34,480 bases of DNA from a virus. The stretch is taken from positions 1 through 34,480 of IMG/VR virus record IMGVR_UViG_3300046048_000299. The stretch is one strand, 5' to 3'. The notes beneath the pieces are model-generated. The model did no database searches. It worked only from the letters and a program-made list of their open reading frames with translations, and was not told where the DNA came from. Shown one piece after another: positions 5,690-30,848 of the stretch; positions within the stretch are counted from its first letter, which is position 1; each line of letters starts with the position of its first letter. The position numbers and the translations under genes are program-made.

Positions 5690-8671
5690 CTATGAGTTAG
5701 TTATTATTGCCTTTGGGCGTTTGCTTGCGAAACTTATTTCCGGCGCCGTCGGGGTATACGATACCCCAGGCGCTTTTCCTTCTATATTAAACGTTATAAC
5801 ATTGCCATATAAAACACTTGTAACCGTCGCGTGATATTGCGTTATTTCCAAATTTAAAAGGGTCGCCGTTATTTTCGAATCGGCCTTAACGGACGCCGCG
5901 AACTGGCTTAATTCTAAAGATAACGGCGCAACCTGGGCGAACGTTGAACCGGCCTTAATTAATGCCGCATATTGCGTCAATTCGGCGACCAATGGCGCCG
6001 GTATGGTATGGGTCGCGTGTAATTGTCCGACGCCCTGGGCCGCATATTGTGTTAATTCAAGCGCAAGGGCCGCGGGGACCGTATGTTTAGAGTCCGCCTT
6101 AATTGTCGGCGCATATTGCGCTATTTCAAGGGATTGCGGCGCGGCAACCTGGAAAGTTTGGCCGGTTAGCACCTGGGCCGCATATTGCGTCAATTCAAGC
6201 GCAAGAGGGGCCGCAACGGTATGTTTCGCGTCGGCTTTTATTGTCGGGCTATATTGGGTTATTTCTAACGCCTGGGGCGCCTGGACGGTATGCGTTGCGT
6301 CCCCCTGGGTTTGGCCGGTCGCATGATAAAGAGTAATTTCTAACGCCTGGGCCGCGGCAACCTGGAAAAGAGAATCGGCTTTTATTGTTGGCGCATATTG
6401 CGTTAATTGCAATTCCAGGACCGCCGGGACGGTATGCGTTACGTTCCCGGTTGCTGACGCCGTCGCATGGTATAGGGTAATTTCCAACGCAAGGGCGGCC
6501 GCTACCGTATGGGCGGAGTCGGCTTTTATTGTCGGCGCATATTGCGTTAATTCTAAGTCCTGGGCGGTTGCCGTATGTTTTGCGTCGGCCTTAATGGTCG
6601 GTGCAAATTGCGTTAATTCCAGGGAAAGAGGGGCGGCGACCGTATGCGTTGCGTCAACCTTTGCCGTTGCCGCGTATTGTGTCAACTCCAACGCCTGGAC
6701 CGCGGCGACCGAATGGGTAACGTTTGCCCGCCCCGTTGCCGGATATTGCGTTAATTCTAATGCCTGGACCGCCTGGACTGTAAAGGTTTGTCCCGCGTTT
6801 GCCGTTGCCTGGAATTGGGTTATTTCAAGGGACAACGGCGCGGCGACTATATGTTTTACGTCGGCCTTAACGGTTGGCGCATATTGCGTTATTGCTAAGT
6901 CCTGGACGGTCGCCGTATGCTTTACGTCGGCTTTTACAGTCGGCGAATATTGGGTTAATTCCAATGCCTGGGCCGCCTGGACTGTAAAGGTTATTCCCGC
7001 GTTTGCGGTTGCCTGGAATTGGGTTATTTCAAGGGACAACGGCGCCGAAACCGCAAAAGTCGAATCGGCCTTAATGGTTGGCGAATATTGGGTTAATTCC
7101 AAAAATTGCGGGGACCCTACAACGTGGACCGAATCGGCTTTAATCGTGGCGACGTTTTGGGTCAATTCCAACGCCTGGACCGCGGTTACTGTATGCGTCG
7201 CGTTTGTTTGGCCGGACCCGGTCGCGTGATATTGCGTTAACTCTAATGCCTGGGCCGAACCGGTAAATTTAGCATCCGCCTTTATGGTCGGGCTAAATTG
7301 CGTCAATTCTAGCGATTGCGGGGCGGTTATGGTAAACGTTGCGTTGACTTTCGCGGTTGCCGGATATTGCGTTAACTCTAATGCCTGGGCCGCCGAAACC
7401 GTATGTTTTGCGTCGGCCTTAATCGTGGCGGCGTTTTGAGTTAACTCTAATGCCTGGACCGCCTGGACCGTATGCGTTGCGTCCCCCCCTCCCGACGGTT
7501 CGTAAGTCCCGGCGATTATCGCGTCAAAATCGTCTGAATTTTTAACAATGTTCCAAACGACCGTAGTATCTAAAATGCCGAATAACTCGTAATCATAATC
7601 AGAAAAACGCAAGTCTGACGTTGTCGTCGAATAATTGGCGCCGGTCCCTGACGTATTAACAATTTTTGATTGTGCAAGATGGTCATAAACTTGTAACGTC
7701 CAACCGCCGGAACCATCATGCGTGAACATTAAAGAGTACGGAGTATCAGTATCAACGGAATAACTGTCGGTAATGGTTCCGTCGCTATCTGTTATGCTTA
7801 TGACGGCCCCGTCGGTAACTTCAATCATTATGCCCGTACTAACGGGCCACGCGTCGGGACCATGCCAATAAATAACGTTTCTTGTTGCAAACGTCCAAAT
7901 AATAAACGACGTGAAAATCGTAAATGTCGTCCCTGACTTAAATGGGTAATTAGACGATAAATTGGCGTTTGTCCTTTGTAGCCAAGAATCGGGGTAAAAC
8001 GAAACACTCTTTTCCCCGTATGCTGAACTATACCCTGAAAGGACAGTCCCGCCGCCAAGGGTTAAATCGTTCCCGTTGTCCGACTGGTCGGTATAGTCGC
8101 TTTCAAAATCCCACCAACCGCAAAGGCCGTCGTCGTCTGTAAAGTCGTTTTCCTCTTGCGCGATAAATAAATATGCGCTTATGGCAGTCGAAACATAGGC
8201 GGTATAGGTTTGATTGTATAAACGGAACTCGTAAAGGTCGTTTAAGTCGGCGCCCGAAACGTCAACCGCGAATTGTATTTCCGTTTCGTAATCGTCCGCA
8301 AGGTTAATCGAATCGCAAGTCGCGGCGTTTTCGACTTCCTCGCCATTTTGCCAACTGTCCCCCTGGGTTGACGTCCGGCGGTTTGCTTCGGTTAATGCGT
8401 TCCCGTTTGTTAATACTGTACTGGAACTTCGTTTTAAATCCCCGGTCGTGCCTAATGCGGTCCATGAACCGGAGTCCGTTATATTGCGCCAATGTAATGT
8501 ATATTGACTTGCAACGGTATCTTTGCCGCCTGAATGAATACAAACCGCGACAATAATATGCGGGTTTGTTACAAGACGCGAAACGTTGCCGTTATCATCT
8601 CCACTAAGGTCATTCCGGCTTGCGTCTAAAATCCGCCAACCGCCCAATTGTGAATAATAAGTCGTTGCCAT
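5690..8671 (-). CDS. Large tail fibre / adhesin with LamG-like domain and tandem repeats (993 aa)
   Basis: Three regions can be seen. Residues about 1-175 form a sheet-rich N-terminal domain with IIVAVCIHSGGKDTVASQYT and RRTSTQGDSW. Residues about 180-395 look like a concanavalin-A/LamG jelly roll (GLCGWWDFESDYTDQSDNGN, FTIFTSFI, GGWTLQVYD). From about 397 on there are about 24 degenerate copies of a 23-residue unit with consensus LELTQYAPTIKAD, ending in a short C-terminal domain with ISFASKRPKAIITNS. I infer a long fibre in which the repeats form a rod and the lectin-like domain binds glycan. The start overlaps the YkgJ-like gene as TAATG. Repeat number may vary between relatives by recombination. 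Confidence 0.8.
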   Translation of the reverse strand: MATTYYSQLGGWRILDASRNDLSGDDNGNVSRLVTNPHIIVAVCIHSGGKDTVASQYTLHWRNITDSGSWTALGTTGDLKRSSSTVLTNGNALTEANRRTSTQGDSWQNGEEVENAATCDSINLADDYETEIQFAVDVSGADLNDLYEFRLYNQTYTAYVSTAISAYLFIAQEENDFTDDDGLCGWWDFESDYTDQSDNGNDLTLGGGTVLSGYSSAYGEKSVSFYPDSWLQRTNANLSSNYPFKSGTTFTIFTSFIIWTFATRNVIYWHGPDAWPVSTGIMIEVTDGAVISITDSDGTITDSYSVDTDTPYSLMFTHDGSGGWTLQVYDHLAQSKIVNTSGTGANYSTTTSDLRFSDYDYELFGILDTTVVWNIVKNSDDFDAIIAGTYEPSGGGDATHTVQAVQALELTQNAATIKADAKHTVSAAQALELTQYPATAKVNATFTITAPQSLELTQFSPTIKADAKFTGSAQALELTQYHATGSGQTNATHTVTAVQALELTQNVATIKADSVHVVGSPQFLELTQYSPTIKADSTFAVSAPLSLEITQFQATANAGITFTVQAAQALELTQYSPTVKADVKHTATVQDLAITQYAPTVKADVKHIVAAPLSLEITQFQATANAGQTFTVQAVQALELTQYPATGRANVTHSVAAVQALELTQYAATAKVDATHTVAAPLSLELTQFAPTIKADAKHTATAQDLELTQYAPTIKADSAHTVAAALALEITLYHATASATGNVTHTVPAVLELQLTQYAPTIKADSLFQVAAAQALEITLYHATGQTQGDATHTVQAPQALEITQYSPTIKADAKHTVAAPLALELTQYAAQVLTGQTFQVAAPQSLEIAQYAPTIKADSKHTVPAALALELTQYAAQGVGQLHATHTIPAPLVAELTQYAALIKAGSTFAQVAPLSLELSQFAASVKADSKITATLLNLEITQYHATVTSVLYGNVITFNIEGKAPGVSYTPTAPEISFASKRPKAIITNS
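5810..7480 (-). repeat. Tandem degenerate ~69-bp coding repeats (about 24 units)
   Basis: Units of 66-75 bp encode L-E-(L/I)-T-Q-(Y/F)-x-(A/P)-T followed by KAD and HTV(A/P)A. Successive units are related but not identical, and some pairs share long near-identical stretches (for example the units around 6780-6850 and 6980-7050), which points to repeated duplication within the gene. Such arrays are prone to copy-number change. Confidence 0.9.
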
Positions 8672-12966: not shown

Positions 12967-15450
12967 TTAAGGGACCTCTGTTAATTCGAAAGAAACGTGA
13001 TATTTGTCATTAACCCAATGCCTTTGCTCAATGTCCCCCATGTTTTTAACTAAATAACTTTTCCAGGCAATCGCGGAGTCCGGGACAAAACAAATATTTT
13101 GTCCGCCGTCAATAAACCGGGACATTGCAATAATTTGGTCCCGCGTATCCTGTGAACATTTCCAATTAAGGGACCATTCGCGAACCGGCGGCCCGCTTCT
13201 TATCGGGAATATGCCGCCGCCTGAATTCCTGTTATAATCTACGTTTGGCCGTTGCGTTAGGTTAAACCCATTGTCGGGCGTCCGCGTTAATGTAATATCC
13301 ATCCCCGCGACCAATGAACCAATTTTGTAAAACCCCTCCGCGGTTGTTTGCGTTTCAATCAAAATCATTAAATAACGCCCATTGGCCCCGGTAAACGACT
13401 TGTAAGAATTGCCGCCGAAAATTGCGATTGCGTCCCCGTCGTGAAAGTCGTTTGTTATATCGCCCTCTAGGTACAATTTGCCGCCCAAATTGTATTTTAT
13501 TTTATAGGTATTGCCCGCCTCCGAACCGCCGCCGCCATTGTCTACGCCCCGCAAATAGGCCCCCGACAATTCAAAATCGGCAAAATCAGTTATTGCCGTC
13601 GGAACGTCAATATAACCCGAATCGGTTGTTTCGACGTCGCCGGTTGCAATGTCAAAACTAACTGTTTGATTAATGGTAGGGGTTCCGAAACTGTCGTCGG
13701 CCGCCTGTTTAATGGTTAATTGCCTTACGTTGCAACCGAACAAACCAACGGCGTTAATAAAATTTCCGTATGTTTCTCCCAGGTCAAAAAATATGGCGGC
13801 GTCGACGCTATCGCCGGTTGTCCTAAACTGTTTGGCGGGCGAATCGGACAAGATATTTTTAGGCGCAAACAAAAAGTCCGGGCCAAACGTCCAAATATCG
13901 CCGTCGCGACCGTTGCCCCCATACCATTGAACGTCGATATTATTTATTAGTCTTTGTTTTAATGCGTTCATCGGGACATAACAGTCGTTTGTTCCTTCGC
14001 TATAGGTTAACCAATGTCCCCTTTTATATAACTTCAATGTATTATTGCTTCGGTCAATTACGGTTAAAATCGCCGAATGACCGTCGGGAAACGAAAGGCC
14101 GCACGAATTATATGTCCCGCCACTTGGCCCCGAAATTACTTGGTCCGCCGACCACGTTTCGCCGCCGTCGTCCGACATTGAATAAAGGTACGTCGAATCG
14201 GTAACATTTACCGCAACGCAATATATGTCGCCGTTAAGGTCAACGATTGCCGACGGGTACGATACCGCGTCGGGGTTGTCTGCAATTACTGGCCCTTCGT
14301 CGTCAACCCAAACGCCGCTTGCTTCGTCAAAATATGTAAAATAAATTTCGTTGTAACTTGTCGGGACTGTCCTGTAAAAAAACATTAAACCATAAGGGCC
14401 GGACGAATAAATAAAATTACCCCCGTAAATTGTAGAAACCCCTATGCGGGTCGCCATTGTAACCGGACTTCCCCAGGTCAATCCGTTATCGTAAGAATGG
14501 ACCGCCATACAATATAAGAAAGTCCCGCCGTGATAGGCGCCCAACAAATACCCGTCGGGGTGTTCAAAAATTGAATGGCAAGACGTATTCCCGTAAAAAT
14601 CGACCCTTTGCCAAGTCGCGCCGTTATTGTCTGAATAATATATATATAAATACGCACTAACGAAAATTCGCCCGGACGTCGGGCTAATATATGCGGTATA
14701 AACAGATAAGTTATAAGTCCCAGGGATAACCGTAAAAGACGACCACGTCAACCCCCCGTCAATACTTGTTTTATAACCCGCATAATTCGCCGAATTTTGA
14801 TAAAACAAAAACCATGTCCCGTCGTTTGCGACAATAACCGGTAAACTATAATGTGCGTAGTCTTTGACGTCGTCCGCGACTTCTACTCCGCCGTACCATG
14901 TTGTTCCGTCCAATGTTTCCCGGCCTAAATACGTTGTCCCGCCATTATGGGACCATCTAAAAGAGGCGTTTTGCGGGTCGCCGCCGTTGGTCAATTCTAG
15001 TATTATGTCCCGGCTTATATAGGGAATTGTTATCGTATATGATACGCCTGAAACTATTTGCGCCGAAAACGCCGCGGTCGTTATTGTCCCGGTCGACCTA
15101 ACATAGTCGGAAATGTCTTTTGTTTCCCCGGACGCCGCCCCGGAATTAATAGTAACTTTTCCGCCTATCAAAAAGTCGTCGCCAATAAATTTTAATTCGG
15201 CCGACGTATCGACAACGGTTGTACCGCCAACGGCGCCATTAGTGGTTGTTGTCCCGCTAAATGTAAAATCGCCTATCCCCAAATTGCTTGAACAAACGGG
15301 GCGCAAATTTCCCAAATTACTATTAGACGGCGTCGGTTGCCTGACGAATGGGTTTGCCGGTATTGCGTTGTCGTCAACCTGGGCCACGTCTTGGTTAAAA
15401 AATGACATTTCGGGCGTCAAACTTTTTCCAACAATTAATTTCGTAGTCAT
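12967..15450 (-). CDS. Tail-tip protein with Asp-box (BNR, sialidase-like) beta-propeller (827 aa)
   Basis: Residues about 150-480 contain four clear Asp boxes of the form S-x-D-x-G-x-T-W: at about 229-236 (SIDGGLTW), 273-280 (SDNNGATW), 319-326 (SYDNGLTW) and 426-433 (SDDGGETW); a weaker one lies near 167. This spacing is that of a six-bladed sialidase-type propeller. I cannot locate the catalytic Arg triad or a FRIP motif, so activity is unproven, and Asp boxes also occur in non-enzymatic propellers. The C-terminal 160 residues (REWSLNWKCSQDTRDQI, ICFVPDSAIAWKSYLVKNM) resemble distal-tail/minor-tail domains. It is the first gene after the tape measure, the usual place of the distal tail protein, so the propeller appears built into a tail-tip protein. 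Confidence 0.7.
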   Translation of the reverse strand: MTTKLIVGKSLTPEMSFFNQDVAQVDDNAIPANPFVRQPTPSNSNLGNLRPVCSSNLGIGDFTFSGTTTTNGAVGGTTVVDTSAELKFIGDDFLIGGKVTINSGAASGETKDISDYVRSTGTITTAAFSAQIVSGVSYTITIPYISRDIILELTNGGDPQNASFRWSHNGGTTYLGRETLDGTTWYGGVEVADDVKDYAHYSLPVIVANDGTWFLFYQNSANYAGYKTSIDGGLTWSSFTVIPGTYNLSVYTAYISPTSGRIFVSAYLYIYYSDNNGATWQRVDFYGNTSCHSIFEHPDGYLLGAYHGGTFLYCMAVHSYDNGLTWGSPVTMATRIGVSTIYGGNFIYSSGPYGLMFFYRTVPTSYNEIYFTYFDEASGVWVDDEGPVIADNPDAVSYPSAIVDLNGDIYCVAVNVTDSTYLYSMSDDGGETWSADQVISGPSGGTYNSCGLSFPDGHSAILTVIDRSNNTLKLYKRGHWLTYSEGTNDCYVPMNALKQRLINNIDVQWYGGNGRDGDIWTFGPDFLFAPKNILSDSPAKQFRTTGDSVDAAIFFDLGETYGNFINAVGLFGCNVRQLTIKQAADDSFGTPTINQTVSFDIATGDVETTDSGYIDVPTAITDFADFELSGAYLRGVDNGGGGSEAGNTYKIKYNLGGKLYLEGDITNDFHDGDAIAIFGGNSYKSFTGANGRYLMILIETQTTAEGFYKIGSLVAGMDITLTRTPDNGFNLTQRPNVDYNRNSGGGIFPIRSGPPVREWSLNWKCSQDTRDQIIAMSRFIDGGQNICFVPDSAIAWKSYLVKNMGDIEQRHWVNDKYHVSFELTEVP

Positions 15451-25296: not shown

Positions 25297-27164
25297 CTTT
25301 TAACAAAACCCCCTTTCCGTTTTCGCTTTAATCCCTTGCGGCGCGATTGCTCTTTTTCCTGGGCGTCTTTTTCCTGGGCGTTTTCTTCCTGGGCGTCTTT
25401 TATTTTTTCGTCGGCCCGTTCGATTGCCTTTGCCAATACTTTAAATTTTGGGTTCAGGATATAAAGCGCCGCAATATTATAAACCCGGCAATCTAGCGGT
25501 TCGTTGCGCGTCCTAATTTTTTTATATTCCCTATGCGGGACGCCTTTTTTGTACTTAATTACTTTTTCTTCGGCCGTTAACCCTTGGTAATAATCCTCGT
25601 TATAGTGGTCCGGGAAATGACAATACCCAGGCCCCGGCGTTTCTATGCCTAATCGGGCGAATATGGTATCTTTTGCGGTATCCGTTCCGACCATATAAAG
25701 CCGAACCTTTTTGCCGATACCGACCTTTGTTGGGCGGGAAACAATCGGTTTCCCTGTTTGCGCGTGGCCTTTCAAGGCATAAACCCGGCGGACTTGTCTT
25801 TTCTCAACGTATTTATAAACCGCATTGGTCGCGAACCCTGTATCTATTCCCAATGCGTTTATTTTCAGTATGCCGCCCCCAGGCCGTCTAAATTGCCGGT
25901 CTAGTATTTCGTCCAGGCGGCCCCAAACCTCGCTTAACTCCGGGTCCCCGTAAATTATTTCGTAATCCAACGACCACGATTGTTCGCGTTCGCCCCAACC
26001 GACTATTTCGCATTCTATCCGGTTGTCCTGGACGTCGACGCCCGCGGTAATACATAAAACCCCGGCCGGTGCCTGGGCGGTTCCGTATTTTTCCGCCCTG
26101 TTTATTAATTCCAGGCCGTCTACCCCTTCGCCCCTTTCTTCCCATGTTTCCCCCAGGACCGTATTAACAAACGTTTGCAATGTTACCGGGTCGTCCTTTA
26201 CTTCTAAAAATTCGGCCGCAAGTTTTCCCCATGCCGCATTGGGAAACAATGAATACGCGGCCCATATATGAAAACCGGCGTGGCCCTTAAATGGCGCCGT
26301 TGGTATCCATTCGCCATTTTTTACCATCCACGCCTTAAACTTTTCGTTTATTTCCGCGCCGCATTCAGGACAAACAAACCGCGCCGTTTCCGGTTTCCCT
26401 GGGTCCCATTTTAAATTTTTCCATTTTAGAACGTGAAAGGTTTTACAATGCGGACAAGGGACATTGTAAAAACGTTTGTCGGATTGTTCGAAACTCGTTT
26501 CTATCCTGGACGCCCCTTTAATCGTCGGGGTTGAACCTAAAATAATTTTACGGTTCCAAAATGTTTCGGTCCGTTTTATTCCTAATCGTATTTGGTCGCC
26601 CTCAACCCCGGCCGTCGGCGGGTAGGCGTCCGGTTCGTCAAACAATACAATTCGAACCGTCAACCGTCGGAAACCGCGGGCGGAATTCGCCCCGATAATG
26701 GTTAAAACCCCGCCGGGGTATTGTTTTTTTAAAATGGTATTGGAACTGTCGCGGGTTTTCGGGTCGGAAACTAAACCGTCAAGGGCGGGCGTATCCCGCA
26801 ACATTGGCGCAATTTCGTCTTTGCTGTAACCCTGGGCGTCGTCTATTGTTGGTTGGACTACTAATATTGGGGCCGGGTCCTGTTCTATATGGTACCCGAT
26901 AAGATTGTTTAAACATTTCGTATAGCCAACCCTGGCCGACTTCATCCAGGTTATACGTTCGTTTAACGCGTCGGTCATTGCGTCCATTGGCCCGCGTTGA
27001 TATTCTATAGTATGCCACTTCCCCGGCTCCGCTGACGATTCCGGGGACAAATACGCCTTTTCGTCCGACCATTCGGACAAGGTTAGAACCGGCGGCGGCG
27101 TCCAAATCTTTTTTACCGCCTCAATGCAAGTCGTTATTGTTTGGTCGCAACTTTCAATTAACAT
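25281..27164 (-). CDS. Terminase large subunit, lambda GpA family (627 aa)
   Basis: The ATPase has a deviant Walker A at about 75-83 (KSARVGYTK), as in lambda gpA, Walker B at about 173-179 (VLFDEPD) and a coupling motif ILGSTPT (208-214). Cys237, Cys240, Cys265 and Cys268 form a zinc site (CPHC, CPEC). The nuclease follows with ITAGVDVQDNRIECEIVGWG and ALGIDTGF carrying the conserved Asp residues. The enzyme cuts concatemers and pumps DNA into the prohead. The start overlaps the Nu1-like gene as TAATG. The C-terminus is an odd Lys/Arg tail with AQE repeats encoded by a tandem repeat around 25345-25400. Confidence 0.93.
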   Translation of the reverse strand: MLIESCDQTITTCIEAVKKIWTPPPVLTLSEWSDEKAYLSPESSAEPGKWHTIEYQRGPMDAMTDALNERITWMKSARVGYTKCLNNLIGYHIEQDPAPILVVQPTIDDAQGYSKDEIAPMLRDTPALDGLVSDPKTRDSSNTILKKQYPGGVLTIIGANSARGFRRLTVRIVLFDEPDAYPPTAGVEGDQIRLGIKRTETFWNRKIILGSTPTIKGASRIETSFEQSDKRFYNVPCPHCKTFHVLKWKNLKWDPGKPETARFVCPECGAEINEKFKAWMVKNGEWIPTAPFKGHAGFHIWAAYSLFPNAAWGKLAAEFLEVKDDPVTLQTFVNTVLGETWEERGEGVDGLELINRAEKYGTAQAPAGVLCITAGVDVQDNRIECEIVGWGEREQSWSLDYEIIYGDPELSEVWGRLDEILDRQFRRPGGGILKINALGIDTGFATNAVYKYVEKRQVRRVYALKGHAQTGKPIVSRPTKVGIGKKVRLYMVGTDTAKDTIFARLGIETPGPGYCHFPDHYNEDYYQGLTAEEKVIKYKKGVPHREYKKIRTRNEPLDCRVYNIAALYILNPKFKVLAKAIERADEKIKDAQEENAQEKDAQEKEQSRRKGLKRKRKGGFVKRWNQN

Positions 27165-27616
27165 TAGTCGGTTGATAATTCGGTTAAGACGTCCCGAACC
27201 CCTTCGGACAAAATGTTTTTAACTTCGTTTAATTTGTCGACCCCTATAACGGCGGGCGCCAATTTTGACGGTAGGGACAATAAACGCGCCTTTGCCCCTG
27301 CGATATAACTTGCCCAACGCCTTTTTGCTTCGTCGGTCGGTATCAATTCGCCCTTTAGACGCGCGACTTGCAATTCCTTTTCGTCCGCCTTTGCCTTTAC
27401 AAGTCGCGCCTCGTTGTCCTCTTTTGTCCCGTCCGTTGGTCCGACCGAAACGTTTACATAAATTGCCGCGACAACGTCCGCCATTCGGTAATATTTCGAT
27501 TTACCGTCGATTCGAACCGGGGCAACGTTCGCAATCTTTTTGCCTATGGTTCGACGGTCAATTCCTAACTCTACCGACAAACCCGAAACGGTCCAATCGG
27601 TCGGCGTTAATGACAT
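27164..27616 (-). CDS. Terminase small subunit, Nu1-like (150 aa)
   Basis: Residues about 8-53 are a winged helix (WTVSGLSVELGIDRRTIGKK, then a YYRMADVVAAIY wing/helix), and residues about 65-110 are a helical segment with RLVKAKADEKELQVARLKGELIP, the pattern of Nu1/DUF1441 small terminases. It recognises the packaging site and recruits the large subunit, coded next with a TAATG overlap. The GpA/Nu1 pairing normally goes with cos-type packaging. Confidence 0.85.
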   Translation of the reverse strand: MSLTPTDWTVSGLSVELGIDRRTIGKKIANVAPVRIDGKSKYYRMADVVAAIYVNVSVGPTDGTKEDNEARLVKAKADEKELQVARLKGELIPTDEAKRRWASYIAGAKARLLSLPSKLAPAVIGVDKLNEVKNILSEGVRDVLTELSTD

Positions 27617-27927: not shown

Positions 27928-28074
27928 CTATATACGGTCAATGCAACGCAAGAAAAACAAACATAAAACGGAATAATAAAGCAAAAACAAAGCAATAAAA
28001 ATTAATGCGAATTCTGCAATATTTCCGACAATTTTAAATGCCTTTTTCCAATCTATTTTTGATTTAAAAATCAT
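27928..28074 (-). CDS. Small single-pass membrane protein (48 aa)
   Basis: The frame starts at 28074 (MIFKSKIDWKKAFKIVG) behind a GGGGGG tract four bases away and ends TAG at 27928. One membrane segment covers residues about 19-43, with LIFIALFLLYYSVLCLFFL. A basic amphipathic N-terminus and short RCIDRI tail suggest N-in topology. The strong ribosome site, formed by the last unit of a repeat cluster, is the evidence that it is translated. Function unknown. Confidence 0.55.
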   Translation of the reverse strand: MIFKSKIDWKKAFKIVGNIAEFALIFIALFLLYYSVLCLFFLRCIDRI

Positions 28075-28076
28075 CA

Positions 28077-28152
28077 ACCCCCCTGGGGTACCCTTGTTTT
28101 TTATGGTACCACCCCGTATTTTTTGGACGACCCCCCCCCAGGTATTTTTTTT
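28077..28152. repeat. C-tract/T-tract repeat cluster B (three units)
   Basis: Three units of the form A-C(4-9)-N-G(G)TATTTTTT: C6 with T6 (28078-28102), C4 with T6 (28112-28124), and C9 with T8 (28131-28152). They lie downstream of the 102-residue gene and upstream of the 48-residue gene. On the minus strand each unit is an A-run followed by a G-run, and the last one serves as a ribosome site. Confidence 0.7.
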
Positions 28153-28461
28153 CTAATCAATTGTCCGGGCGGACTTAACTGGACTTGCCGGGTATCCTTT
28201 GCAACAATTAACGTCAACTCCGGCGATATTTCCTTCGGCGTCCTGGGTAACAACAAACTCATATTCCGGCGCCCATGCCGAAAGGGGTACCGTCGAAAAT
28301 CTATTGCATACCCCCATATATTCTATGGCGTTATAGTCCAATCTTGTTTCTGCGTGTATTGGCAAAAGGCCCAAAAAGGCGAATAATTTTGCCACTAAAT
28401 CCGGGGACTTTTCAATAAAACGCAAGTCGATTCTAAACCGCCCCAATTGCCTATAATTCAT
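28153..28461 (-). CDS. Hypothetical protein flanked by repeat clusters (102 aa)
   Basis: Starts MNYRQLGRFRIDLRFIEKSPD with a GGGGG ribosome site. The chain has a hydrophobic helix (LVAKLFAFLGLLPIHAE), a VCNRFST segment, YEFVVTQDAEGNIAGVDVNC and a final CCKGYPASPVKS. Three Cys lie in the last quarter. No family recognised. The gene sits between two similar three-unit repeat clusters, like an exchangeable cassette, and directly after the CMP-sugar synthetase-like gene. Confidence 0.6.
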   Translation of the reverse strand: MNYRQLGRFRIDLRFIEKSPDLVAKLFAFLGLLPIHAETRLDYNAIEYMGVCNRFSTVPLSAWAPEYEFVVTQDAEGNIAGVDVNCCKGYPASPVKSARTID

Positions 28462-28466
28462 CTCGT

Positions 28467-28533
28467 ACCCCCATGTTTTTTTTAATACCCCCCCCCTGGG
28501 TATTTTTTATTGACCCCCTACCCGGTGTTTTTT
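28467..28533. repeat. C-tract/T-tract repeat cluster A (three units)
   Basis: Units: C5 with T8 (28468-28483), C9 with GGGTATTTTTT (28488-28508), C5 with GGTGTTTTTT (28514-28533). The second unit is also a 7-bp inverted repeat, AATACCC and GGGTATT. The cluster reaches into the stop codon of the CMP-sugar synthetase-like gene and supplies the ribosome site of the 102-residue gene. Confidence 0.7.
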
Positions 28534-29335
28534 ACAGGTTACGCCCTGAACAAAACCAATCGTTTCTTATTTTGTCGGGGCATAATTCGCAATACCCCCC
28601 GCGACATTGGGCCGAATATGGTAAATCTTGCCTATGCGTTTTATACTTTTGCGGCGTATCATAAACTAAACGGTCGCATTCCCAGGACATACGCGCCCGC
28701 AATAAATCTTCGGCGTTATCAATATCGTAATTGGCCCAGGCGGGCAATTCCAGGAATACAAGAGGGAAACGCCAACGGAAACCCGCTTCGGCAATAAAAA
28801 CCGGGGCAACCTGTATTGAATTGATTTCGATAAGGAATATTTCGTTTAAATCTTGCGTCCTGGGGTAATTGTCAATGTTCCACCAAGTCGGAGATTTACT
28901 GCCAACGCGCCATAACCAAGGCGGAACGGGTACGCCTGTTAGTCCCCCTAATGCCTTTTCTCTTATTACTGCGTCGATTAAGGTATCAATTGCCCCCATT
29001 GGCCGCAATGGGACCGCGGCTTGCAATGTTACGACGTAATCCATATTCGGATAAAACGTTAAGGCGTGTTTGACGGCGTCGGATATGTCGGCCGTATCGC
29101 TTGCCAATTCAGGCGGCCGGACAACCGTTTCGAACCCCCAACGCGCCGCAATTTCCGCCGTTCGTCCGCAATCGGTTGAAACGCACCGATGGGTTATAAA
29201 CCCCGAATCGTTGGCGGCCTGGAATGCGAATTCAACCAATCGTAAATCGCCCAAAAATTCCAGGTTTTTCCCTGGCAAGCGCTTTGAACCGGCGCGGGCG
29301 CAAACGACCGCTAAGACATTAGGCGGGTTGTTCAT
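28532..29335 (-). CDS. CMP-sugar acid synthetase-like (acylneuraminate cytidylyltransferase family) with Cys-rich tail
   Basis: The N-terminus CARAGSKRLPGKN matches the nucleotide-binding signature of CMP-N-acetylneuraminate, CMP-pseudaminate and CMP-KDO synthetases (PF02348). VSTDCGRTAEIAARWGFE, the RPPELASDTADISD segment and DIDNAEDLLRA near residue 210 follow in the family order. These enzymes join a sugar acid to CMP from CTP. The usual LQPTSPLR is LQAAVPLRP here, so substrate or activity may differ. A C-terminal addition of about 50 residues carries CRGGYCELC and a later Cys, a possible metal site. The start at 29335 follows AAAGGGGG; an ATG at 29359 adds eight residues and also has a G-tract. 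Confidence 0.8.
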   Translation of the reverse strand: MNNPPNVLAVVCARAGSKRLPGKNLEFLGDLRLVEFAFQAANDSGFITHRCVSTDCGRTAEIAARWGFETVVRPPELASDTADISDAVKHALTFYPNMDYVVTLQAAVPLRPMGAIDTLIDAVIREKALGGLTGVPVPPWLWRVGSKSPTWWNIDNYPRTQDLNEIFLIEINSIQVAPVFIAEAGFRWRFPLVFLELPAWANYDIDNAEDLLRARMSWECDRLVYDTPQKYKTHRQDLPYSAQCRGGYCELCPDKIRNDWFCSGRNL

Positions 29336-29358
29336 TGTTCCCCCTTTATACGGCGCCA

Positions 29359-29688
29359 TTATTGGCCCCCGTATTTTTTACTTTTCAACCTGTCTAACTC
29401 CCCCTCTAGGTCGTCGATTAAATCCGGTTCCCATGCCTCGCCCTTTCCGGCCCTTTCCTTTTCCTTTAGGGTCCTGACTTGCGATTCCAACATGAAAATT
29501 TGAAAGTCTAAAAAGTCGCGTTGTACTGGTTCGGATTGTTGTTTATAAATTTCTTCGGCCTCACTTTCGGTGCAAATAAGACGGTCGAAATATTTAAAAC
29601 CGCCTCCGATTGTTTGCGTTGCCCCGAACATAATACCCATTGCAACGACAACGGACAAAATTGGGTTATCTTCTATTATTTTTCGCAT
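29359..29688 (-). CDS. Small membrane protein with coiled coil (109 aa)
   Basis: A membrane segment lies at about residues 9-29 (ILSVVVAMGIMFGATQTIGG), followed by a charged helix with coiled-coil character, residues about 40-105 (SEAEEIYKQQSEPVQRDFLD, IFMLESQVRTLKEKE, DLIDDLEGELDRLKSKK). Ribosome site GGGGGATGG. It overlaps the glycosyltransferase-like gene by 23 bases and is coupled to the CMP-sugar synthetase-like gene by TAATG, so the three form one unit. It could anchor the enzymes at the inner membrane, or be an unrelated spanin-like or exclusion protein. Confidence 0.65.
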   Translation of the reverse strand: MRKIIEDNPILSVVVAMGIMFGATQTIGGGFKYFDRLICTESEAEEIYKQQSEPVQRDFLDFQIFMLESQVRTLKEKERAGKGEAWEPDLIDDLEGELDRLKSKKYGGQ

Positions 29689-30244
29689 TCCATCCCCCGA
29701 ACAATTCGATTAATGGTCCTGAAACGGCGCGTATATTTTCCGAATTAGGACAAATTATTTTTGCATTTAACCAAGGCCGTAAATGGTGCTTTAATTCCTT
29801 GCGCGTTTCCTTGGTCGCGTCGTAACCCGTCCTTTCGTAATAATACGCGTCCCCTGTATAGCAATCCATCCCGCACAATAAAACAGGGTCGCCCCCCAAA
29901 TGGCAAGCGAACCACGTTGCCAAACTTGACGACATACCCTCAAACCACTTAACGCAATCATGTTCAAAGTCGGAATACGCGCAAATGGTTGAAAGTCGAC
30001 GCCCAATATATTCTTTTTGTATTTCGTAAAAATCCGGCCATTGGATAGGGTCGTCGGCAAAAACCATATAATTGCAAACAACCAACCGGGCCGCATGATG
30101 GTTAACGGAAATTAAAACAGTATCGGGCAAAAATTCGACGTTGTCTATTTTTTCAAGGTCCCCAGGCAAAGAGGGACCGCCCCCCAGGACCGCAATGGTT
30201 CGCCCCTTAAAACTGTCTTTCATTGCCCGCAAGGAACGTTTCAT
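29666..30244 (-). CDS. DUF115 / GT42-like protein, possible nonulosonate transferase (192 aa)
   Basis: The protein has VLGGGPSL at 19-26, SVNHHAARLVVCNYMVFADDP at 46-66 (pattern only: SVN, then FADDP), SSSLATWFACHLGGDP at 105-120, LLCGMDCYTGD at 122-132 and CPNSENIRAVSG at 165-176. The same order (GxGPSL, an N near 48, a D-P, a serine-rich turn, then LCGxDxYxGD) is found in Campylobacter CstI/CstII sialyltransferases (GT42) and in DUF115/Maf proteins that add pseudaminic acid to flagellin. Catalytic His candidates are His153/154. It is short for either family. The DUF115 family also includes MptE pterin enzymes, which is the main alternative. Confidence 0.65.
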   Translation of the reverse strand: MKRSLRAMKDSFKGRTIAVLGGGPSLPGDLEKIDNVEFLPDTVLISVNHHAARLVVCNYMVFADDPIQWPDFYEIQKEYIGRRLSTICAYSDFEHDCVKWFEGMSSSLATWFACHLGGDPVLLCGMDCYTGDAYYYERTGYDATKETRKELKHHLRPWLNAKIICPNSENIRAVSGPLIELFGGWNAKNNRR

Positions 30245-30245
30245 T

Positions 30246-30848
30246 TTATCGCATTGTCCTTAATGCAATCGACAACCGTTGATAAAAATTATTCGGAAAT
30301 TTCTTTTTGGCCTCGCGTTGCGCGACTTCGTCGAAAAAATATCGTTTAGGGACGACGGCCGAATATGCCCGCGTAAATATTTTTTTGACAACGGGGTTTT
30401 TCTTGCCCCCTGTTTTTTTAAAAATTCCCCTCTTGTTCGAAAACGTGTTTTTTTGGGCCAAGACTTTTTCGGGTCCTAATGCGTTTGCCAATGTCTTAGG
30501 GGTATTCGCCGTTGGTATTAATAACGACTTTGATTTAAAGGGCGTTTTAATGCCGCCGTCCGTTTGTAAAGACAAAAAATACGCCTTTGAATAAACGGTC
30601 GCGACTAGGGCGGGCCATAATTTTTTGTCCGCCGTAACGACCTTAATACCCGTCGGTTGTTGCTGTTTGTACCAAACCTTTTTATTGTTGAAAACCGTTT
30701 GCGCCTCGCGCGTTAATGCGCCTTGACAATCTTTTATCGTGGCCGTCATTGCGGCGGCCGTCGCATACGGTAATTGCTTTTTTTGTAAATCGTTTAATTG
30801 GCGGGCAACGTCTTTTATATTGTCTTTTACAACAAGGTCTAGCGGCAT
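30246..30848 (-). CDS. Possible tail-completion protein, minor tail Z / gp10-like (200 aa)
   Basis: Starts MPLDLVVKDNIKDVARQLND behind GGGGGG. Residues about 20-50 (LPYATAAAMTATIKDCQGAL) recall the PxAxAxALNxTA start of lambda gpZ-like and HK97 gp10-like proteins; the centre is basic and Pro/Lys-rich, and the end (YFFDEVAQREAKKKF) resembles a C-terminal helix of this family. In lambda Z lies between FII and U; here that slot is empty, and this gene is 11 kb away, before the terminase. The call rests on pattern and on the empty slot, so it is tentative. Confidence 0.45.
   Translation of the reverse strand: MPLDLVVKDNIKDVARQLNDLQKKQLPYATAAAMTATIKDCQGALTREAQTVFNNKKVWYKQQQPTGIKVVTADKKLWPALVATVYSKAYFLSLQTDGGIKTPFKSKSLLIPTANTPKTLANALGPEKVLAQKNTFSNKRGIFKKTGGKKNPVVKKIFTRAYSAVVPKRYFFDEVAQREAKKKFPNNFYQRLSIALRTMR

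Follow-up and report, generated by a model that had tools for sequence, protein, structure and literature searches.

An uncultivated tailed phage, whose IMG/VR virus record of 34,480 bases is considered here in full (the window), carries near its terminase genes one gene whose product resembles CMP-sugar synthetases and a second whose product resembles sialyltransferases. The question raised by this locus is whether the phage activates an acidic sugar with CMP and transfers it and, if so, to which acceptor. An earlier note on this DNA had described the two genes as a coupled pair with a small membrane protein between them. In this study, the gene order, the family and fold assignments, the nucleotide-site residues and the occurrence of the pair in other viral contigs were analyzed computationally.

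Tailed-phage genes for terminase, portal, capsid, tape measure and major tail protein were recognized in the window. The three genes of interest (Table 1) are complete open reading frames on the minus strand; transcription runs from the 192-residue protein through the membrane protein to the synthetase, and downstream of them lie the small and large terminase subunits (27616-25281), followed by portal, capsid and tail genes. The first of the three starts 1 nt downstream of the gpZ-like minor tail gene and overlaps the membrane-protein gene by 23 nt, which in turn overlaps the longest form of the synthetase gene by 1 nt; the overlapping, coupled arrangement claimed in the earlier note is thus confirmed, and the motifs quoted there (CARAGSKRLPGKN, GGGPSL and LCGMDCYTGD) were all found in the window proteins. 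The start of the synthetase is uncertain because the alternative at 29335 has an equally good ribosome site (GGGGGAACAATG). No NulO biosynthesis genes were recognized among the window proteins scanned, and no flagellin gene was recognized in the window. Downstream of the module, a run of C followed by a GGGTATTTTTT-like sequence is repeated in the intergenic stretches (28060-28160 and 28480-28540) that flank the 102-residue open reading frame.

Table 1. Positions of the module genes and of the genes bordering their slot in the window
Feature	Coordinates	Strand	Basis
gpZ-like minor tail protein, left slot border, candidate acceptor	30246..30848	-	phrog_1924, E 4.5e-20
DUF115/GT42-like predicted CMP-sugar transferase, 192 aa	29666..30244	-	PF01973, phrog_4603, profile A10, AF2 model
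109-aa single-pass membrane protein	29359..29688	-	Hydropathy; no family matched
CMP-nonulosonate synthetase-like protein, 275 aa (267 aa from start 29335)	28532..29359	-	PF02348, PDB 1eyr, model
102-aa ORF between synthetase and packaging genes	28153..28461	-	No families matched
Terminase small subunit, right slot border	27164..27616	-	phrog_57, E 3.2e-21

The synthetase matches PF02348 with an E-value of 3.1e-21 (76.6 bits against a cut-off of 22.6), which is not a chance match. Its nearest solved structures by sequence are CMP-Neu5Ac synthetases (1eyr, 2.6e-14, compared with 4.9e-6 for KdsB). The AlphaFold model, with a mean pLDDT of 79, is mostly above 90 in the core and of low confidence in a Cys-containing C-terminal tail of about 45 residues; it superposes on 1eyr with a Z-score of 26.6, on 6ifd with 26.3, on the CMP-Kdn synthetase 9t4z with 26.2 and on the CMP-Pse synthetase 9ftc with 25.2. 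CMP-Neu5Ac, CMP-Kdn and CMP-Pse synthetases make up the whole of the top eight structural matches (Z 24.1-26.6), whereas KdsB reaches at most 21.4. The claim that this protein belongs to the CMP-sugar synthetase family therefore holds, and both sequence and model support its grouping with the CMP-nonulosonate synthetases, nearer to the NulO type than to KdsB, with the corresponding activity predicted. Loss of the CTP-binding residues, named beforehand as counting against the claim, was looked for in the alignments; R14, S17, K18, K23, N24, R73 and D80 (267-residue numbering) and the DID metal motif are kept. The score of 57.4 bits lies far below the cut-off of the NCBIfam PseF equivalog model (205.7), so no exact sugar can be named. 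In the synthetase tree the window protein forms a long branch with no close relative, and its placement is not firm. The best synthetase match among annotated phage records, Moritella viscosa FPLJ01000048, is in fact a capsule locus from a bacterium, and the weaker matches, found in Synechococcus phage MinM1 and Stenotrophomonas phage ANB28, cover short segments at E 2-4 and were set aside.

The sole Pfam match of the 192-residue protein is PF01973 (E 1.2e-7; 32.1 bits against a gathering cut-off of 34.6), a family matched by all 50 aligned relatives (best 7.9e-12); phrog_4603, labelled 'alpha-2;3-sialyltransferase', is matched by 47 of them. The present name of PF01973, 'MptE-like', comes from the 6-hydroxymethylpterin pyrophosphokinase MptE, but the family is the former DUF115, which also takes in Maf; a match to PF01973 alone does not, therefore, refute a transferase. 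An AF2 model (pLDDT 93) has Maf (5mu5) as its best structural match (Z 12.8 over 178 residues at 3.7 Å), followed by SteA (Z 10.9), MptE (8sd5, 10.8), CstI (10.5) and CstII (10.3). Structural Z alone cannot tell CstII from MptE, whereas the sequence profile separates them: profile A10, which combines 16 phage members of the transferase family, matches CstII at 1.1e-10 (in the nucleotide-binding domain), CstI at 1.7e-9 and a Pasteurella sialyltransferase at 1.3e-6, and more weakly MptE (6.8e-6) and Maf (2.6e-4). The A2 profile alone gives 6.5e-5 for CstII and 0.0086 for MptE, the latter in the Gly-rich loop only.

The relatives conserve the residues that line up with the CMP site of CstII: N48 in 49 of the 50, S105 in 47, D127 in 50, Y129 in 49 and Y135 in 41. 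The counterparts in CstII are N31, S132, D154, Y156 and Y162. A nearby histidine, H154, is present in 39 of the 50 and is at most a candidate counterpart of the CstII base histidine H188, which has no invariant equivalent in the family. PF06002 (CST-I) has no match in the window at E-values up to 10, nor in the A2 scan.

These comparisons bear on a different reading, in which the 192-residue protein would be an MptE-like pterin pyrophosphokinase or some other nucleotide-binding Rossmann protein, adjoining the synthetase incidentally. Its single Pfam match and the structural likeness to 8sd5 are compatible with such a function, as are PF01973 matches in control archaea. However, the family profile ranks CstII above MptE, the MptE match of the A2 profile is limited to one loop, Maf tops the structural matches and CMP-sugar synthetases recur beside the family, as set out below, and we regard a pterin kinase or a similar protein as improbable. 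Placement with the MptE-type kinases was the outcome that had been named beforehand as refuting the GT42/Maf/DUF115 assignment; the profile evidence instead ranks CstII above MptE. Profiles and model thus support a protein that fits the GT42/Maf side of the superfamily better than the MptE side, with CMP-sugar transfer as its predicted activity.

The 109-residue protein has one hydrophobic N-terminal segment (residues 10-28, hydropathy peak 1.75) and is otherwise charged. It matches no family, none of the loci searched contains a relative, and the other transferase-synthetase pairs shown lack it, which rules it out as a conserved partner. The earlier description of a small membrane protein coupled by overlaps between the two genes was correct in this respect, but its inclusion as a part of the system was not upheld.

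The transferase belongs to a widespread phage family whose genes are usually flanked by the terminase and the portal and have no synthetase beside them. Relatives are encoded in 161 IMG/VR candidates, of which the best 80 were fetched; of 86 transferase loci, 66 have the terminase large subunit at one flank and 69 have the portal at the opposite flank. A membrane protein of 57-70 residues follows the transferase in 23 of these loci and a methyltransferase-like open reading frame precedes it in 13. In L258, one of the synthetase-bearing loci described below, the transferase overlaps the last gene of a head-tail cluster. No synthetase was found near the close relatives in the 80 loci, using a NulO-type profile and, within the fetched stretch, KdsB-type queries; a PF02348 search of whole records found one in a single record (G004) among 16 besides the window and in none of seven further records. 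Since most transferase-bearing phages lack a synthetase, the transferase must normally use a host donor or do something else. Relatives also occur in genomes, among others in MAG contigs of Anaerolineae/Chloroflexi, Armatimonadetes and Omnitrophota, though this does not assign the window phage to a host. Annotated phage records gave no transferase matches, and single-sequence scans of viral contigs found nothing.

The slot between the tail gene and the terminase genes can be compared in three relatives of the window. G004, the nearest record in the set, has the same order of exonuclease, replication gene (39%), gpZ-like tail gene (43% identity) and transferase (43%). About 10 bp after its transferase lies a KdsB-like cytidylyltransferase (PDB KdsB, 5e-18) that gives no blastp match to the window synthetase; the slot and the transferase are the same and the class of synthetase is replaced. 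A second transferase copy lies just before the terminase. In this record, which is that of locus L026, a radical-SAM-like gene (TIGR04471-like, below cut-off) is situated between the tail gene and the transferase (L345:5362-6132). In G024 the slot is empty, the tail gene being followed directly by the terminase, and neither transferase nor synthetase was found in its 32.7-kb record. In L349 the slot is filled by other genes, ParB-like and methyltransferase-like (L349:1550-4725), so that it looks like a cargo hot spot. The two genes are thus together in two phages and together absent from one, which are few cases, and the occupancy of the slot in the three relatives indicates that the module is accessory.

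The synthetase of G004 raises the possibility that the window enzyme makes CMP-Kdo from the Kdo of Gram-negative hosts and that the transferase adds Kdo to the acceptor. One Maf enzyme does accept CMP-Kdo besides CMP-Neu5Ac (PMC11339370). Nevertheless, structure favors the Neu5Ac, Kdn and Pse synthetases for the window protein (Z 24-27 against 21.4 for KdsB) and the sequence matches given above favor 1eyr in the same way, which makes Kdo a rather unlikely sugar here.

Recurrence of the pair was examined in 80 viral-contig loci chosen for carrying a synthetase, part of which may be bacterial sequence. A DUF115-like gene lies directly upstream of the synthetase in L176, L180, L223, L226 and L242, as well as in L258 and L267, and directly downstream in L219, L234 and others. 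Fifteen DUF115-like genes occur within four genes of a synthetase and ten of these are immediate neighbors, where a quarter would be expected (P of about 8e-4, with contig kinship ignored). On the synthetase tree, the supported branches require the 'paired' label to change at least four times, and on the transferase tree three times. Capsid genes were recognized in L219, L223, L242, L258 and L226, the last of which (IMGVR_UViG_3300035698_002488) has portal and capsid genes of the type found in the window. The evidence supports a recurrent phage arrangement that spans at least four synthetase lineages and is not an accident of one contig, and its recurrence in unrelated phages suggests a phage-owned decoration of virions or host surfaces with acidic sugars.

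Other glycan genes accompany the synthetases in these loci. NeuB-like genes were found in 44 of the 80, with Pfam confirmation in L176 and L226, and genes for NeuB, a 2-epimerase and an aminotransferase often occur close to CMP synthetases in viral contigs, L176 and L180 among them, which suggests that some phages carry large parts of nonulosonic acid pathways. The cassette of L226 comprises a DUF115-like transferase, a synthetase, two NeuB-like genes, GT29-like and GT8 genes and methyltransferases. In L168 (2107-3605) a CMP synthetase overlaps the end of a 236-residue protein that has a CstII-like 'FTNGLAYMVALAL' stretch and no Pfam or PHROG matches; this is perhaps another transferase family, and L185 (5627-6361) has a protein of similar appearance close to its synthetase.

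The two genes might also be passengers acquired from the surface-glycan locus of a bacterium and serve the phage in no way that is under selection. The long branch of the synthetase and the other genes in the L349 slot would suit such an origin. On the other side, the frames are open, the base composition of the module resembles that of the remaining genome, the transferase forms a separate phage family whose genomic position is conserved and the pairing is repeated in separate lineages. Mere passengers are accordingly very improbable.

We consider it probable, although well short of certain, that the locus is an accessory tailed-phage glycosylation module for the synthesis of a CMP-ulosonic acid and the transfer of its sugar, perhaps to a virion protein. 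Inserted between the minor tail gene and the terminase genes, the module would act in two steps. The synthetase would combine CTP with a host-made ulosonic acid (a nonulosonic acid such as sialic, legionaminic or pseudaminic acid) to form the CMP-sugar, and the 192-residue protein, as a minimal GT42/Maf-like enzyme, would transfer the sugar in the cytoplasm to its acceptor. This acceptor may be a tail or capsid protein, by analogy with a Maf enzyme that transfers Neu5Ac or Kdo from CMP-sugars to Ser/Thr of flagellin (PMC11339370). A virion protein is put first because the transferase lies beside late structural genes, directly behind the tail gene here and in head-tail modules elsewhere; if the enzymes are correctly assigned, the chance of such an acceptor may be put at slightly less than even, and that of the host surface, which comes second, is distinctly lower. 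Nothing in the data speaks for phage DNA, a further acceptor suggested in the earlier note. Two tail-region genes on the minus strand of the window may be mentioned in this context. The 827-residue protein encoded directly after the tape measure gene (12967-15450) contains a sialidase-like propeller of the BNR_2 type (PF13088, E 6.4e-12), which raises the possibility that glycans are bound or cleaved by the tail itself; the protein has no solved relative by sequence, and no clear sialidase arginine motif was seen by eye. The 993-residue protein (5690-8671), which matches no family, has many imperfect Thr/Ala-rich repeats ('THTVAAPQALELTQYAPTIKAD') and is a possible glycan acceptor.

The same two enzymes could alternatively modify the host surface (LPS, capsule or S-layer glycan) late in infection or during lysogeny, thereby blocking re-adsorption or superinfection, with the membrane protein as the anchor of the transferase. 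GT42 enzymes such as CstII act on lipooligosaccharide. The coupling of the membrane protein in the operon, the small membrane proteins that follow the transferase in 23 of the 86 loci, an integrase-family protein encoded in the window and the absence of the module from one relative, as would be expected of morons, all agree with this possibility. However, late expression is indicated by the tight coupling of the transferase to structural genes and, in most relatives, by its position within head-tail modules, and the other pairs shown lack a membrane protein between the genes. Modification of the host surface is therefore unlikely on balance, while keeping some weight, and the virion protein is retained as the preferred acceptor.

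A wider proposal can be offered tentatively, as something that we find plausible but would not expect to hold: the short DUF115-like proteins between terminase and portal genes would be phage CMP-ulosonic-acid transferases for virion proteins, using sialic-acid-like sugars or Kdo; most would draw on the CMP-sugar of the host, and some would repeatedly and independently have added a synthetase of the class that fits the available sugar. If true, this would give one chemistry, the transfer of a CMP-activated acidic sugar, to a widespread phage family that is now labelled pterin kinase or sialyltransferase without test. Sialic-acid-like coats on virions would bear on the passage of phages through mucus and on their encounters with antibodies and host receptors. 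Furthermore, the short transferase is a candidate for the Maf/GT42 catalytic domain in minimal form, and nature offers a direct test of donor choice, in that a NeuA-like synthetase stands next to the transferase in one phage and a KdsB-like one has taken its place in another. The parts of the module are known families; the phage module itself, a DUF115-like gene paired with a synthetase, was not found described in the literature searched, a search outside which many journals lie.

Among known systems, the mycobacteriophages Che8, Corndog and Myrna offer a precedent for the proposed outcome, since they are described, in the excerpts of the reports considered here, as glycosylating capsid and tail proteins with transferases of their own (PMC12363180, PMC11256854). 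Those transferases are different ones, and the same excerpts describe no CMP-ulosonate synthetase (PMC12363180, PMC11256854). The window synthetase shares its fold over 204-215 residues and its catalytic motifs with the NeuA/PseF enzymes (1eyr, 6ifd, 9ftc and 9t4z), but it is only 21-26% identical to them and has the Cys-containing C-terminal tail in addition. The 192-residue protein shares a Rossmann-like fold and a Gly-rich loop with MptE (8sd5), from which it differs in the weaker profile match and in the lack of a pterin context. With GT42 CstI and CstII (1ro7 and 2p2v) it has in common a homologous nucleotide-binding domain and conserved counterparts of the CMP site; however, it is about 65-100 residues shorter, leaves PF06002 unmatched and lacks an invariant base histidine. 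The closest likeness in structure is to Maf (5mu5; CbMaf), which uses CMP-activated nonulosonic acids (PMC11339370) and whose central domain fold is the one that the model matches best. Maf chains, at 666 residues in 5mu5, greatly exceed the phage protein in length, carry further domains and act on flagellin, whereas the phage protein consists of the catalytic-like domain only and is placed in phage structural modules.
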